Below are positions 1 to 64,000 of a stretch of 64,000 nt of DNA, one piece after another. The notes beneath the pieces were generated by a model, which did not search any database, was not told the origin of the DNA, and saw nothing but the letters and a program-made list of their open reading frames with translations. The DNA comes from Fodinibius roseus (GTDB lineage Bacteria; Bacteroidota; Rhodothermia; Balneolales; Balneolaceae), in contig NZ_FQUS01000007.1 of the NCBI RefSeq assembly GCF_900129315.1, positions 62,001-126,000 on the forward strand, in the 5' to 3' direction. A program made the translations under genes and the position numbers. How positions within the stretch are numbered: position 1 is the first letter of the stretch; each line of letters opens with the position of its first letter.

Positions 1-506
1 AGCATTGCTCTCTTACAGGTGGTTTTCTTGTATTCAGGCATACAGCAGAGCGCCATCATACAACACATATAAAGAGAGCAGAACATTCGCATCGTTTTCA
101 CTTTGTAATTATTTCGTTCATTCGCCCCTAACTTAAAAGTAGTATTGCAAAAAACAAAAATTTTTTATGGTTTTGTTTTAACGGTAAGAATCGTCTGTCC
201 CTTCTGTTCCTCCCGGTTAAAACCGTGACCGTCTTCCGGCAAAAAAAAGGAGATGAAACGCAGGACGTGCGGTAATGGCAGAGTAGCTGGTTTATTTATT
301 TTACTTAAAGAGGTCTTTGCAAAACCGTTATTTTGCCCCGTCTTGACATTGTCGCAATTTCAACATCCTCATATATTTTTTATACACACTGTGGTTTTGA
401 AATCGCTCAGGGGTTGGTATTGCCCCCCTGGCTTTTTAAAGCCCTCTTGATAGAGAGCCAGGACGCTTAATCAGGCACGGGAGACTACGGGATCAGTCAC
501 GCGGGA
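1..506. other. Intergenic region at window start
   Basis: No convincing gene. It holds one copy of the dispersed palindromic repeat (308-449). A 9-base inverted repeat (TGCTCTCTT at 6-14, AAGAGAGCA at 72-80) may belong to the control region of a gene outside the window. Just after the mrp stop codon (which lies on the minus strand) there is a short imperfect direct repeat of the form GGGA..CTACGGG at about 479-510. A 65-codon open frame at 253-450 runs through the repeat and is not supported as a gene. Confidence 0.6.
308..449 (+). repeat. Dispersed palindromic repeat, copy A
   Basis: About 140 bp with complementary ends: AAGAGGTCTTTGCAAAACC on the left pairs with GGCTTTTTAAAGCCCTCTT on the right. 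An inner arm pair, GCAATTTCAA (354-363) and TTGAAATCGC (397-406), encloses the conserved loop motif CATCCTCATATA. It shares the core TCTTTGCAAAACCGTT and the stretch TCAGGGGTTG with copy D at 63.1 kb. It lies downstream of mrp, whose transcript runs towards it. Confidence 0.8.
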
Positions 507-30578: not shown

Positions 30579-31063
30579 TGAAAAGGCAATAAGAAAAGGA
30601 TAGATGTATCCCTCCTGTCAACTGTTTCCTATTTTGCATTAATCTTAATTAATTAGTGTATACAAATAATTTACATTAGTTATATTAACTATTTATGATT
30701 TTTAATAGTATTATTTTATATAAAAAATATTTTTTATTAGTTCGCGAAAAATAATTATCTATTAGGAGGTTTTTGAAAAAGCAGGAATTTCAGTCAATTT
30801 CGTAGCCCTTTGCAACGGCACTCAAATTTGAGCTATACGTACTGTTCGATATGCCAAACTATATCAACGGCTTAATCTTTAATTTCTACTATTTCATTAA
30901 TAATCCGGGATAAGCGCATGCGAGGATGTTGAATATGCAAGTAGGCAGAAATTTGCCAGAAGAAAGGTTTTGCAAAGGGTATCATTAAAGCAACAGGATG
31001 GTTTATTACTGGGTTTTGACCGTTGATATGCGACCGTTAGGAACATAAAGACGACATTGAACA
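30579..31063. other. Regulatory region upstream of the ECF sigma gene
   Basis: About 485 bp. Positions 30640-30760 are extremely AT-rich with many A/T runs, suggesting bent DNA or an AT-rich promoter. The right half is occupied by enlarged repeat copy E (30768-30979). About 84 bp separate that repeat from the TTG start of the sigma gene. Confidence 0.55.
30768..30979 (-). repeat. Dispersed palindromic repeat, copy E (enlarged)
   Basis: About 212 bp, in reverse orientation. The ends GGTTTTTGAAAAAGCAGG (30768-30785) and AAAGGTTTTGCAAAGGGT match the family termini. Read in the repeat's direction it keeps TTCAACATCCTCGCATGC, the family loop motif, but carries about 70 extra bases between the loop and the far end. 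It lies directly upstream of the ECF sigma gene. Confidence 0.65.
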
Positions 31064-40413: not shown

Positions 40414-40769
40414 ATTATTAAATGCAAAAGAATGATTTTGAAAGCAGTCCCTTACATATAAATATAATTAACGGCTGGATTTACTTCCCGATTTTCCCCT
40501 ACCTTTAGGGATAAGGGCGGATCTCCTGTCTATATGCCGGCCGTGTACGAAACCAGATGTAACAAACTATGGTAACCGTTTAACCTGCTAATCAAGTAAC
40601 TTATACCTATAATTTTTTGAAAAACCAGGAATTTTGTCCAGGATCAGGGCCAGAGGAGGGTTGGAATCGCAGCATATCGCCTATATGTGAGGAGTTCAAT
40701 CGACCGATAACGCCGACATCGCTCAAAAGAACGGTTTTGCAAAGCCATTACTTAGTAAACAAAGATTAA
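40414..40769. other. Spacer between the SusCD run and the metzincin genes
   Basis: About 355 bp. Apart from repeat copy B (40614-40746) it holds AT-rich sequence. Copy B ends only 24 bp before the metzincin ATG, so the repeat would lie in the 5' leader or promoter of that gene. Confidence 0.6.
40614..40746 (-). repeat. Dispersed palindromic repeat, copy B
   Basis: About 133 bp in reverse orientation. The ends TTTGAAAAACCAGG and GGTTTTGCAAAGCC are family termini. Read in the repeat's direction it closely matches copy C at 46.2 kb: both have AAAACCGTTCTTTT, a TCGG-rich segment, CTCACATAT, ATATGCTGCGATTCCAACC and AAAATTCCTGGTTTT in order. It directly precedes the metzincin pair, while copy C follows it in the opposite orientation. 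Confidence 0.82.
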
Positions 40770-43500: not shown

Positions 43501-46125
43501 ATGTCATTTAAGATCGTAATGAAGAAAATAAGTCTTGCCGTTGTGCTCCTGGCTATGTTTGGTGGGATATCAATGGCGCAGGAAAAAGAGGATTCCACCC
43601 GGACCACGGATTATGAGGAGCTGTTTGAGGACAAGCCCGTGGAAAGTTCGGAGGGTATGATGATCCTGCGCAAAATGGACGGGAAGGTCTATTTTGAGTT
43701 TCCCACGGAGCTGCTGGATAAAAAAATGCTTCTGGGCGCCTCCGTAGAAGCCACCAGCAATGCCGCGGATGCGGCGATGGGAGAGCAGCCGGACGCCCCT
43801 CTGCCCATTTATTTTACGATGGATGATTCCACCATCTACCTGCGTGAAGTCAAGGTATCGCCTGTGACCGGGGACAGCGCGCGGGCCATACAATCTGCCC
43901 TTGAGAAGAATAACCTGGGCCCCATTCTGGATTCTTTTGATATCGAGGCCGTTACACCGGACAGTTCCGCGCTGGTTTTTGACGCCACGGGCATCTTTAT
44001 AAACGGCAGGGATGCCATTGATCCTTTCGGTCCCTATGCCGGTGTTTCCTCTTTATTTGCCAGCAAAAAACCAACATTCAAGAAAGGCCGCTCCCAGCTG
44101 GTCGACGTCTCGGCTTTTGAAGATAATATCACGATCACGAGTTATCTGTCCTACGACATATCCTCCTCCTTTTTGGGATTTCAGACGGAGAATGAACGTC
44201 CCGCCACCTACCGCATGAAGCACACCCTGGTGTTGTTGCCGGATCAGACCATGCGCCCGCGAATCAGTGATCCTCGCATAGGAATTTCTTCCAATGAATT
44301 TTACAGGATTTCCGGTCACGACAACGGCACAGAGGAGGTGCGGTATGCCAACCGGTGGGAGCTTCGGCCGGAAGACCCGGAAGCGTTCAGAGAAGGGAAA
44401 CCGGTCGAGCCGGTGGTCTTTTACATTGATAATACCTTTCCCGATGCCTGGGTCCGCTACGTGGAGGAAGGCGTAGAAGACTGGAACAAAGCGTTTGAAC
44501 AGGTGGGGTTTAAGAATGCGCTGGTGACTCGCCCGTTTCCGGAAGATGACCCCGACTTCGATCCCAATAACATTAAATACACGACGATAAACTATGTGTT
44601 TAGCAATAATGAAAGGGCCAAGGGACGAACATGGGTGGATCCCCGCTCCGGGGAAATTCTAAGTGCGTCGGTTTCACTCTACCAGGGAGTGCTGGACCGG
44701 CTGCGCAGGAGCATGTTTATCCAGATTGGGGCGGCTGAAAAGCGCGTCAGAACGACCGATATTCCGGATGAACTGCTGGGCAAGGCCATCAGGGACGTGA
44801 CCGCACGGCAGGTGGGGCAAACGCTGGGCCTGACCCGCAATATAGGGGCTGCTTCGGCTATTCCGGTGGATTCCCTGCGATCACCGTCCTTTACCAGGCA
44901 ATACGGGATCACTCCCTCCATTATGGATAATGTAACCTTCAATTATGTCGCCCAGCCCGGTGATGTCGAGCGTGGCGTAAAAATGACGCCCAATGATTTG
45001 GGAGTGTATGATTACTATGCCATCAAGTGGCTCTATACCCCCATCCAGGAAGCTGACAGCCCGGAAGAAGAGGTTCCTACGCTGAGAAAATGGATTGCCG
45101 ATAAAATTGACGATCCCATGTATCGCTACCGGGAATACGATTCGAATAGCACCCGGGACCCGAATTCACATCGTAATGTACTGGGCTTGCTGGGCAGCGA
45201 CCGGTTACAAGCCGCACGCTATGCGATTAAAAACCTGAAGTACGTATTTGAGCATATGAACGAGTGGGTCAATGAGGAGGATGAGGATTACCGGTTTCAA
45301 ACCGAGGTAAACTTTTCGGTTCTTAATATCGAGTTTTACTGGTACTGGCGGCATGTTTTAACCAATATCGGGGGCATTTACCAGCATCGGAAGTATGAGG
45401 GCGACCCATTTCCGGCTTTTGAGGTGGTGTCCGAAGCAAAGCAGAGAAGGTCGCTGACCTTTTTGCTGGAGTCGCTGGAAGCCACCTCCTGGATGAATAA
45501 CGAACGCATCAACCGGGAGATGAATAATATCAACGGGGATGTACAGAACCGCAAAATAGCGGTCTTGTTCCCTTATATCCTGCGATGGGGCGTGGACCGG
45601 ATTGAGGTGAGTCAGCAGAAGGCATACGGCGCTACGTACACACAGCAGGAGTTTTTAAATGATGTATTCGATTATGTCTGGGAAAGTACCATGGCAGGAA
45701 GCATCCCGACCAGGGCGGAACGCATGATGCAGACGCTGTTGACCGATTACCTGATTGACAACTCACCGATCCGGGATGGAACAGGCGAGGAGGGAAGTGG
45801 TGCGAGTGCCAGTGCGTATACATGGACCGACAACGACCGGGCCCTGCTGCAATACGGGCTGCCGGATTTGTCCAGCCACAATAACCGCATATTTGCCCTG
45901 TATGGGGATGGAGCCGCAATGTCACAACTTACTATTGAACGTCTTACGGGCCTGCCGGCCCGCGCCAACAGCGAAAGTACAGCAGATATCTCGGATACGA
46001 TGTACACCTTACTGAAAAAAAGTAAAAAGGTGCTGGAAACGGCGGTTGACGAGCAGGAGGGGGATGTTAAAGAGCAATATGAATATCTGCTGCTGAAGCT
46101 TACCAAGGCACTGGAAGCGGATTAA
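43501..46125 (+). CDS. Metzincin paralogue with destroyed zinc site (pseudoenzyme)
   Basis: About 874 residues, starting one base after the previous stop codon (ATG 43501; MKKISLAV at 43519 is an alternative). A cleavable signal peptide ends near ISMAQ, so unlike its neighbour it is not a lipoprotein. It is collinear with the upstream protease throughout, for example IPVDSLRSPSFTRQYG and FNYVAQPGD, and keeps the Met-turn SIMDN. At the zinc motif (residues 436-446, nt 44806-44838) it reads RQVGQTLGLTR: all three His ligands and the catalytic Glu are replaced. The frame is intact over its whole length, so a conserved non-catalytic role (binding, partner or regulator) is more likely than decay. 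Confidence 0.9.
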   Translation: MSFKIVMKKISLAVVLLAMFGGISMAQEKEDSTRTTDYEELFEDKPVESSEGMMILRKMDGKVYFEFPTELLDKKMLLGASVEATSNAADAAMGEQPDAPLPIYFTMDDSTIYLREVKVSPVTGDSARAIQSALEKNNLGPILDSFDIEAVTPDSSALVFDATGIFINGRDAIDPFGPYAGVSSLFASKKPTFKKGRSQLVDVSAFEDNITITSYLSYDISSSFLGFQTENERPATYRMKHTLVLLPDQTMRPRISDPRIGISSNEFYRISGHDNGTEEVRYANRWELRPEDPEAFREGKPVEPVVFYIDNTFPDAWVRYVEEGVEDWNKAFEQVGFKNALVTRPFPEDDPDFDPNNIKYTTINYVFSNNERAKGRTWVDPRSGEILSASVSLYQGVLDRLRRSMFIQIGAAEKRVRTTDIPDELLGKAIRDVTARQVGQTLGLTRNIGAASAIPVDSLRSPSFTRQYGITPSIMDNVTFNYVAQPGDVERGVKMTPNDLGVYDYYAIKWLYTPIQEADSPEEEVPTLRKWIADKIDDPMYRYREYDSNSTRDPNSHRNVLGLLGSDRLQAARYAIKNLKYVFEHMNEWVNEEDEDYRFQTEVNFSVLNIEFYWYWRHVLTNIGGIYQHRKYEGDPFPAFEVVSEAKQRRSLTFLLESLEATSWMNNERINREMNNINGDVQNRKIAVLFPYILRWGVDRIEVSQQKAYGATYTQQEFLNDVFDYVWESTMAGSIPTRAERMMQTLLTDYLIDNSPIRDGTGEEGSGASASAYTWTDNDRALLQYGLPDLSSHNNRIFALYGDGAAMSQLTIERLTGLPARANSESTADISDTMYTLLKKSKKVLETAVDEQEGDVKEQYEYLLLKLTKALEAD

Positions 46126-46165: not shown

Positions 46166-46308
46166 AGAAGCCTTTGTAAAACCGTTCTTTTACCCCATGT
46201 CGGTGTTATCGGCCGGTTGAAACTCTCACATATTGGCTTATATGCTGCGATTCCAACCTCCCTCCGGCCTTGACTTAGAATAAAATTCCTGGTTTTCAAA
46301 GGCTTCTA
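46166..46308 (+). repeat. Dispersed palindromic repeat, copy C
   Basis: 143 bp with the best-preserved ends: AGAAGCCTTTG (46166-46176) and CAAAGGCTTCT (46298-46308) are perfectly complementary, followed inward by AAAACC/GGTTTT. Inner arms GGTTGAA and TTCCAACC enclose CTCACATATTGGCTTATATG. TCTAATAA occurs at or next to both outer ends, possibly a target duplication or chance. It lies between the pseudo-metzincin gene and rplS, whose transcript also runs towards it. Confidence 0.85.
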
Positions 46309-62723: not shown

Positions 62724-63275
62724 AAAGTGAAATCTAAATTAAAAATTAACATCCTTTCCCTAAGAAGTTGGACTAATATAGAGATTATTTGTTCCGAATT
62801 AAAACAACCCGCAGACAGCTGATATATTGTGGAACCATTTGAACGTACGTCGATCAACCATCCGTAATCATAACAAGTTCGGTCCTGTAAGGGTTATATC
62901 AGAGTACCAGTGATGAGCAGCTTTTATTTTCTGGCTACCGGAAGAAACAGGTTTGGCAAAATGGTCGCATTTATAAACCGTAAACCAAGCCTGGGGCAAG
63001 GTAGGGGGATGGTACGTTGACCGGGAGAAGAGTTAGTTTCGTATTGTTTGGAGCGGACTCCTTTTATATTTTATTAGTAGGCTTTGCAAAACCGTTCTGT
63101 TGGTCAACTTTTGCATTTTCGCGTATACACCATCCTCACATATGTTGTCGTGGATGTTGTGGGTTTGAATACGTTCAGGGGTTGATATTGACCAAAATCC
63201 CCGGTTTTTCAAAGCTTGCTTTTAATTTTATACAAGGCATAAAGCCAGGAGCATCCACCACATACCTCATCGAAT
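62724..63275. other. Intergenic region upstream of the cobalamin-binding protein gene
   Basis: About 550 bp between divergent genes. Its right part holds repeat copy D (63080-63216). I looked for a cobalamin riboswitch but could not find the GCCACTG-type core. Segment 62940-63030 has G-rich runs but no recognisable aptamer. An open frame at 63017-63367 runs through the repeat and into the next gene in another frame and is rejected. Confidence 0.5.
63080..63216 (+). repeat. Dispersed palindromic repeat, copy D
   Basis: 137 bp. The ends GGCTTTGCAAAACCG and CCGGTTTTTCAAAGC are complementary except one base. Further inside, TTGGTCAA (63100-63107) pairs perfectly with TTGACCAA (63188-63195), and CGTAT (63122-63126) with ATACG (63169-63173). 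The loop motif CCATCCTCACATATG is present. It lies 60 bp upstream of the cobalamin-binding protein gene. Confidence 0.83.
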
Positions 63276-64000
63276 ATGCGTATTGTCTCGCTGCTTCCAA
63301 GTCTCACAGAAATAGTTTCGGCACTGGACAGGAAGGAGCATCTTGTGGGACGTTCGCACGACTGTAATTTTCCGCCCGGTATTACTGCTTTGCCTTCCTG
63401 TACGGAGCCCAAATTTCAGGCAGATGGAACCAGTTATGAAATGGATCAGCGGGTTAAAGCGATTCTTCAGGAAGGACTCTCCGTTTACCGGGTGGATGCG
63501 GAGCAGCTTGCAAAACTGAAACCTGATATCATTTTAACTCAGGATCATTGTGAGGTTTGTGCCGCTTCGCTAAGTGATGTGCAGGAAGCGGTGCAATCGA
63601 CCCTCGCTGAAGAGGTTACTATTATTTCGGTGTCTCCTACCGACCTTTCTTCGGCGGTGGATGCCGTTCGCATTGTGGCTCGTGCTATAGAGGCCGAAAA
63701 AGAAGCGGAAGAGCTAACGGCACAGATGAAAGAAGACCTGCGGGAGATTCAGCGGCAGACACGGCCCCTTCGCCGTCCCGATGTTCTCTGCCTTGAGTGG
63801 CTGAATCCGTTGATGGCTGCGGGCAACTGGGTGCCTGAGCTTGTGCAGCTTGCCGGAGGGACCCCGCTGGCTGCGACAGCAGGAGCCTATTCACCAAAGC
63901 TGGAATGGGAAAAAGTGAGGAGGTTGAATCCCGGAATTATTACCATAGCCCCCTGCGGATATGAGATTTCCAAAACACTTGCGGAGCTTGATACGGTAAC
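63276..64000 (+). CDS. Cobalamin-binding protein of the BtuF family (cut by window end)
   Basis: At least 241 residues; the 3' end is outside the window. MRIVSLLPSLTEIVSALDR opens directly into the first lobe of a periplasmic-binding fold, with no signal peptide. SHDCNFPPG near residue 27 corresponds to the SHECD(F/Y)PP motif of BtuF-like proteins, followed by ILTQDHCEVCAAS with a Cys pair, LCLEWLNPLMAAGNWVPELVQLAGG near residue 170, and EWEKVRRLNPGIITIAPCG. Members bind vitamin B12 for uptake or salvage; without a signal the protein may act in the cytoplasm or its export signal may be missing. Confidence 0.88.
   Translation, partial: MRIVSLLPSLTEIVSALDRKEHLVGRSHDCNFPPGITALPSCTEPKFQADGTSYEMDQRVKAILQEGLSVYRVDAEQLAKLKPDIILTQDHCEVCAASLSDVQEAVQSTLAEEVTIISVSPTDLSSAVDAVRIVARAIEAEKEAEELTAQMKEDLREIQRQTRPLRRPDVLCLEWLNPLMAAGNWVPELVQLAGGTPLAATAGAYSPKLEWEKVRRLNPGIITIAPCGYEISKTLAELDTV

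Follow-up and report, generated by a model that had tools for sequence, protein, structure and literature searches.

The window analysed here, a 64,000-nucleotide stretch of the Fodinibius roseus genome, carries five copies (A to E) of a palindromic repeat. Copy E, at 63077-63219 on the plus strand, is a complete element of 143 bp, and the family profile R1 matches it over 63079-63217 with 108.7 bits. The borders of its left (63077-63093, plus strand, GTAGGCTTTGCAAAACC) and right (63203-63219, plus strand, GGTTTTTCAAAGCTTGC) terminal repeats were set by the target duplications of the family. Outside them lie two 5-bp flanks, TATTA (63072-63076) and TTTTA (63220-63224), which are identical at four of five positions and form a decayed target duplication. 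Inside, the arms TTGGTCAA (63100-63107, plus strand) and TTGACCAA (63188-63195, plus strand) pair in the predicted fold as an inner stem. Apart from short frames that overlap one another, the surroundings of copy E hold just the beginning of the next gene, an open frame at 63276-63998 (MRIVSLLPSLTEIVSAL...) immediately downstream that presumably resembles a BtuF-type periplasmic binding protein. No terminator-like site was found in 62900-63400, the sole stretch scanned, and a terminator or promoter function at copy E is unsupported.

All five copies named by an earlier sequence-only reading of this DNA exist and are members of one family, as seen in the sequence itself, by blastn and with R1. 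Bounds are given including the 17-bp ends, and copies B and C are oriented opposite to A, D and E. Copy A (310-446, plus strand, R1 87.8 bits) is flanked by TTAAA and TTGAT, which match at three of five positions, and copy C (40610-40749, minus strand, R1 83.4 bits) has decayed outer arms and the flanks TAAGT and TAGGT (4/5). Copy D (46167-46306, plus strand, R1 84.1 bits) has the arms AGAAGCC/GGCTTCT and GGTTGAA/TTCCAACC; the border given by the automatic flank comparison was out of register in this copy, and its flanks, TAACA and TAATA (4/5), were therefore read by eye from the printed sequence. Copy B (30766-30982, minus strand, ends approximate) contains an apical insert at 30808-30910 (minus strand, approximate bounds) that by eye looks like another small repeat; R1 matches this copy in two halves, 30911-30978 and 30768-30807, and no duplication lies in register. 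Several details of the earlier description need correction. The arms now given for copy D had been ascribed to copy C but belong to the copy at 46166, and TTGGTCAA/TTGACCAA, ascribed to D, occur in that at 63080. The outermost arms, said to be complementary in each copy, pair no more in the copy at 40614, and CATCCTCACATAT, called the loop, is really the left side of the apical stem. Against their own dinucleotide shuffles, copies A, D and E have an advantage in folding (DNA z -2.4, -3.5 and -3.4, respectively), whereas copy C (DNA z +0.8) and copy B folded with its apical insert (RNA z +0.4) have none.

The second small repeat, CCGGATTATTCACGAAA ... AATCCGGG, is variable and was seen within the apex of some copies (window ~30808-30910; contig C34 ~2838 and ~164652) and also standing alone (C34 ~208212), so that some copies are composites. 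The motif scan for this repeat did not list copy B itself.

The earlier reading had proposed a genome search for further copies, and this search returned many with common ends beyond the five. Since RNAalifold gave no pair on 30 own-genome copies, R1 was built from these 30 by sequence only, without structure, and the copies it found are thus free of structure bias; the alignment holds 30 of 34 collected copies and omits L008, L012, L013 and copy B on account of gaps or an insert. In the 5.08-Mb genome R1 matched all 85 candidates scored among 1810, giving at least 85 copies, and blastn matched all 40 scored among 239, giving at least 40. About 32 distinct copies, counted by hand with halves and a nested pair included, lie in the only 437 kb that were unselected for density (C34 and C28:1-195500), which extrapolates to roughly 370 copies genome-wide. 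Five copies in 64 kb, previously described as dense, are therefore the genome average.

Further statistics rest on 119 copies with intact ends, taken from 139 non-overlapping hits in 916 kb, part of which was chosen because it carried copies. The element has the form GARRSCTTTGCAAAACC...GGTTTTTCAAAGSYYTC with 17-bp ends, a median length of 140 bp (137-143 bp in 91 of the 119 copies) and the consensus GAGGGCTTTGCAAAACCGTTCTTTTGGCC...GACCAAAATTCCTGGTTTTTCAAAGCCTTC, and its end motif occurs 170 times in the genome at no more than one mismatch, against a single occurrence of the reversed control. Two subfamilies with different inner arms account for 89 and 27 copies. Pairwise identity has a median of 68%, and copies are 16-18% diverged from their subfamily consensus; they are old. 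One pair, on two contigs, is 97.8% identical.

The flanks carry the trace of insertion. Exact 5-mer duplications border 20 of the 119 copies against 0.8 in shuffled partners, the 5-bp setting being the best of 256 length-and-offset settings tried, and exact 4-mer duplications border 26 against 2.0. Flanks are identical at four or more of five positions in 55 of the 119 copies, where 500 shuffles averaged 8.1 and never exceeded 16. This agreement is limited to five positions in one register and ends at the element border; the duplications have the loose form TNNNA. The outer arms, all of the pattern GARRS/SYYTC, are enclosed by the 5-bp duplications; because flank agreement stops at the border, these arms are the tips of the element. 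Moreover, one copy is nested inside the apex of another (C28 ~136640-137060, L089), with TCACA on both sides, by eye one base off the family register. This nested copy and the 97.8%-identical pair point to past movement, as judged from their sequences.

Dispersal is mostly between genes. Crude ORFs contain seven of the 119 copies, compared with 68% of random positions, and joining the flanks yields a spanning frame no shorter than 150 aa for 12 of 114 copies, compared with 280 of 600 random positions; from these spanning frames a few copies may sit in genes, ORF calling being crude. Neighbouring genes are convergent at 19 copies, tandem at 61 and divergent at 24, which is near the orientation of random intergenic positions, and a preferred gene orientation was rejected on this ground.

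Shorter forms also carry the mark of insertion. A 36-bp element (C20:44940-44975) consists of little beyond the two ends and has TTATA on both sides, and a 72-bp derivative in a relative (G033) has an exact 5-bp duplication, so that the palindromic interior is not strictly needed for movement. The two-ended scan gives a lower bound for such forms, as it overlooked the 36-bp element and added a single other one. Elsewhere in the F. roseus genome, a 128-bp element whose ends are similar and whose interior resembles GTCATCCTGAA lies at C26 ~43895-44022 between ATACA and ATATA.

With R1 at E 1e-3 and 85 candidates scored per genome, at least one copy was found in 14 of 38 genomes, F. roseus included. 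Within the genus the copies so found lie in three of 11 genomes, namely G003 (at least one), G006 (one place, on both strands) and G011 (at least three), and among the 85 scored per genome there were at least 26 matches in G030 and at least 30 in G033. The end motif, at one mismatch or fewer, occurs 96 times in G004, 28 times in G008 and 196 times in G033, with 0-2 occurrences of the reversed control. Of the 30 two-ended rows listed for nine relatives, 10 are bordered by exact 5-bp duplications, in G033, G008, G004, G028 and G019, and 38 of 47 distinct elements of relatives are 137-143 bp long. Some elements of G004 and G008 have other interiors between the same ends, again with exact 5-bp duplications.

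Two further observations concern these relatives. G004, which appears to be Fodinibius halophilus 2W32, has many end pairs spaced by 129 bp (e.g. L092 1389-1517); the few that were read are near-identical MITEs with the same ends, an unrelated interior (GTCATCCTGAA...) and in some cases exact 5-bp duplications, and from these sequences they were probably active recently. In single copies of G030 (L283), G033 (L276) and G022 (L285) the apical stem is, by eye, swapped for a hairpin of the CCCCGA...TCGGGG type.

The family consists of miniature inverted-repeat transposable elements (MITEs), short non-autonomous passenger transposons. At ~140 bp they are too short to carry a transposase, and the ends point to an insertion sequence (IS) that encodes one. 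An identical 94-95-bp sequence starting GAAGGCTTTGCAAAACC stands at five contig ends of the F. roseus assembly, which is what a recent multicopy IS breaking the assembly would produce; the assembly, 99.2% complete overall, leaves the interior of this five-copy element unassembled. Both ends are retained by a decayed copy on C59, with ...TTTGCAAAA... on the left and GAAGGCTTTGAAAAACC on the right, and its difference of C on the left and A on the right recurs in the MITE consensus, a hint that hangs on one base. In the same assembly no intact IS5-type transposase gene was seen, only decayed remnants on C42 and C59; there was by eye no transposase-like frame beside L152 and L153, and neither an initial Pfam scan of the 87-aa C59 frame nor an exact 24-base scan of the genome contigs gave a match.

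The C59 frame led to complete relatives, among them three transposase genes of G031 with open frames of 352-368 aa. Five two-ended IS of ~1.28-1.32 kb were found in relatives: three of 1278 bp have exact duplications (ATTAA in G051; TATTA and TTAAA in G004), and the flanks of two 1315-bp copies in G031 match at four and three of five positions. The three transposases scanned, two from G031 and one from G051, contain PF01609 (DDE_Tnp_1) and PF05598 (DUF772) and score 246-268 bits with NCBIfam NF033581 (IS5_4; cut-off 140), whereas the IS1182 model stays below its cut-off. By these scores the candidate partner transposase of G031 and G051 belongs to the IS5 family. A 5-bp duplication is not known to be typical of IS5 groups. 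These Balneolales IS have the same or closely similar 17-bp ends as the MITE and 5-bp duplications; unlike it, they are ~1.3 kb long with a transposase, and their interior is by eye unlike that of the MITE. Indeed, element and IS have only ~17 bp in common at each end, and the IS ends of G004 and G051 depart from the motif at several bases. IS with MITE-like or the same ends are present in G031, G051 and G004, and in the F. roseus genome as an end and remnants only. The element-rich G030 and G033 gave no transposase match at E 1e-5, where broken contigs could hide one. On such comparisons, an IS5-type partner of the MITE is well supported. Mobilisation in trans is something we infer, from the ends in common and the length of the duplication, rather than observe, because the F. 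roseus assembly is without an intact gene and G030 and G033 are without a transposase match.

As a side observation, the flanking 5-mers of two oppositely oriented IS copies in G031 (L161 and L162) look swapped by eye: TATTA is the left neighbour of one and the right neighbour of its counterpart, a pattern that an inversion between the two copies would produce.

The sequence-only reading had further held that the stems change in step between copies. The statistical test of covariation upholds this strongly between genera and only modestly among the F. roseus copies. For the comparison between lineages, 18 elements from 12 genomes were aligned: 14 hand-picked from the 47 distinct full elements of relatives, three of the picked rows (G012, G029, G036) carrying ends that depart from the motif, and four own copies, with G027, most rows of G030 and G033 and most long-insert rows omitted. 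In this alignment, 83.8% of cells are paired against 72.8% after shuffling, and 29 pairs show double changes against 17.6. The covariation score is 0.347 against 0.159 (sd 0.012), for a structure derived from the same alignment and with relatedness of rows ignored; it was matched by none of 500 shuffles, and slid versions score 0.06-0.14, none reaching it. RNAalifold alone finds 26 pairs in the 18 rows, 17 of them with double changes.

Within the genome the picture is different, and rare changes are mostly uncompensated. Over the 119 copies, 68.2% of cells are Watson-Crick against 63.3% from independent columns, and double changes number 317 against 169 expected. Much of this is explained by the subfamilies, within which the Watson-Crick fractions are 69.1 against 66.9% and 66.8 against 64.7%, with 4 of 55 pairs reaching p<0.01 in each. 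Among variants confined to one or two copies, 9 of 150 cells in the big subfamily (4.4 after shuffling) and 7 of 121 in the small one (5.3) have a complementary partner; for single-copy variants the counts are 5 of 50 (1.9) and 3 of 57 (2.5). The excess is clear and small for variants in at most four copies (25/335 against 11.9 in the big subfamily, 22/205 against 11.4 in the small one); for variants in at most eight copies of the big subfamily it is 56 of 611 against 35.2. We infer that transposing lineages retain the palindrome and that it is mostly lost from copies once resident, since this reading fits both covariation tests. The earlier proposal that it is the fold, whether DNA hairpin or RNA, that is conserved is half right: the palindrome is kept between lineages, but in residents rare changes at paired sites mostly lack compensation.

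The RNA side of that proposal found little support. G-U cells number 832 against 907 expected in the own genome and 91 against 112 in the 18-row alignment, the A-C cells 382 against 450 and 45 against 66, and single changes yield G.T and A.C about equally (287 vs 260; 64 vs 50). The window has no Rfam match at the gathering threshold. As G-U is not in excess, G.T and A.C are about equal and an Rfam match is lacking in the window, a symmetrical, DNA-level property is favoured. On the other side, the minus strand folds better by a mean of 1.66 kcal/mol, in 72 of the 119 copies (p 0.004; base-shuffled copies 0.43), and U-G or G-U is the commonest pair at four pairs, in 11-17 of the 18 rows; both speak for RNA to a small degree. 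Retention of the fold in individual copies with tolerance of G-U, the mark of a structured RNA, is not supported by the rare changes and the G-U counts.

The family has the features of a MITE: it is short, has terminal inverted repeats and target duplications, lacks a transposase of its own and is accompanied by an IS with similar ends. The MITE-like nature suggested earlier is borne out by the common ends, the 5-bp duplications, the nested copy and the IS with like ends, and that the family is a MITE by kind is near certain. Its mover, judged by ends and transposase genes, is very likely an IS5-type jumping gene. A review of prokaryotic MITEs (PMC10969869) names the ERIC/IRU elements and describes bacterial MITEs, such as the Correia elements of Neisseria, as likewise short, with terminal inverted repeats, many copies and no transposase. 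Correia elements live in another host and have described promoter, IHF and RNase III roles; the target duplications of the present family are 5 bp long. The ends of Correia elements probably differ from those of this family, and the ERIC/IRU elements of enterobacteria are similar-sized imperfect palindromes between genes. Among the titles listed from the open-licence PMC literature we found no reports of MITEs or insertion sequences in Balneolales or Fodinibius.

The earlier reading had also considered a REPIN-like element. In REPINs, a Y1 tyrosine transposase (RAYT) mobilises pairs of REP palindromes in the form of single-stranded hairpins. The copies are indeed palindromic, numerous and mostly intergenic, and the REPIN study PMC3116915 describes a dispersed palindrome with compensating arm changes as found here. 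Y1 matches occur in G004 (8), G033 (3) and G030 (4). REPINs go with RAYT Y1 transposases, however, and the REP-associated transposase sought in F. roseus was not found: none of the five candidates scored matched PF01797 in an assembly that is 99.2% complete, and the similar ends bound DDE IS elements instead. IS200/605-type insertion proceeds without target duplication, whereas 5-bp duplications are present here. A REPIN is rejected on these grounds, and we give it almost no credence. Equally far-fetched is the view that the outer arms are complementary only through insertion into existing palindromes, e.g. terminators. It would account for the variation of outer arms between copies, but the arms share GARRS/SYYTC and lie within the 5-bp duplications, which led to its rejection; the stretch scanned around copy E (62900-63400) has no terminator-like site, and gene orientation is near that of random intergenic positions.

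A structured RNA, either a regulatory or a processed transcript, could instead have been spread by a transposon, with its fold selected in each resident copy. The strong covariation between lineages, the three of five window copies that fold better than shuffles, the minus-strand advantage, the four U-G/G-U pairs and the small excess of compensated changes in residents would suit it. Against it stand the one- or two-copy variants, compensated in just 9/150 and 7/121 cells, the G-U cells that do not exceed expectation, the near equality of G.T and A.C, the window without an Rfam match and the presence of a copy in only three of 11 same-genus genomes at E 1e-3 (85 candidates scored per genome). 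We regard this explanation as quite improbable, and the repeat is probably not a functional RNA. Somewhat better placed, and still rather unlikely, is a palindrome that is not selected at all, its arms being kept alike by arm-to-arm templated correction as the lineage evolves. In quasi-palindrome template switching, one arm is corrected with the other as template. The between-lineage changes are mainly Watson-Crick replacements with no G-U excess, and the small compensated excess in variants of at most four copies (25/335 and 22/205) would also be consistent with it. Templated correction should nevertheless reach all copies, and those that have diverged by ~16-18% stay mostly uncompensated, which speaks against frequent correction.

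We return to the MITE, and consider it highly probable that the family is moved by an IS5-type transposase in trans and that its palindrome belongs to the spreading of source copies and not to host use. An IS5-type DDE transposase encoded elsewhere would act on the 17-bp ends and move the ~140-bp element in trans. The palindrome would matter for, or be renewed in, the spreading of source copies, and the folded form of a landed copy would be useless to the host. Across the order the interior stays palindromic while its bases are exchanged, and in F. roseus the rare changes of residents are mostly uncompensated. More tentatively, the palindromic DNA form could itself be a selected trait of the transposing source copies in this DDE (IS5-type) system, a possibility that we hold to be less likely than not; it is suggested by a length kept in the genomes of 12 relatives and by a pairing pattern kept in 18 rows from 12 genomes while stem bases are replaced, although the resident F. 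roseus copies decay. The selected form might be, for instance, a hairpin or cruciform that brings the ends together or lessens the harm of landing. To our knowledge, no such structural requirement is known for DDE elements of this type.

The finding would account, by a transposon family, for the dense repeat in a genome of the Fodinibius group. Furthermore, it suggests that covarying stems need not indicate a functional RNA, as structure may be kept on a mobile lineage and mostly lost in its residents, and it allows selection for spreading to be told apart from selection for function in the host. Given forms of 36, 72 and 140 bp, the part that the palindrome plays in DDE transposition can be tested directly.
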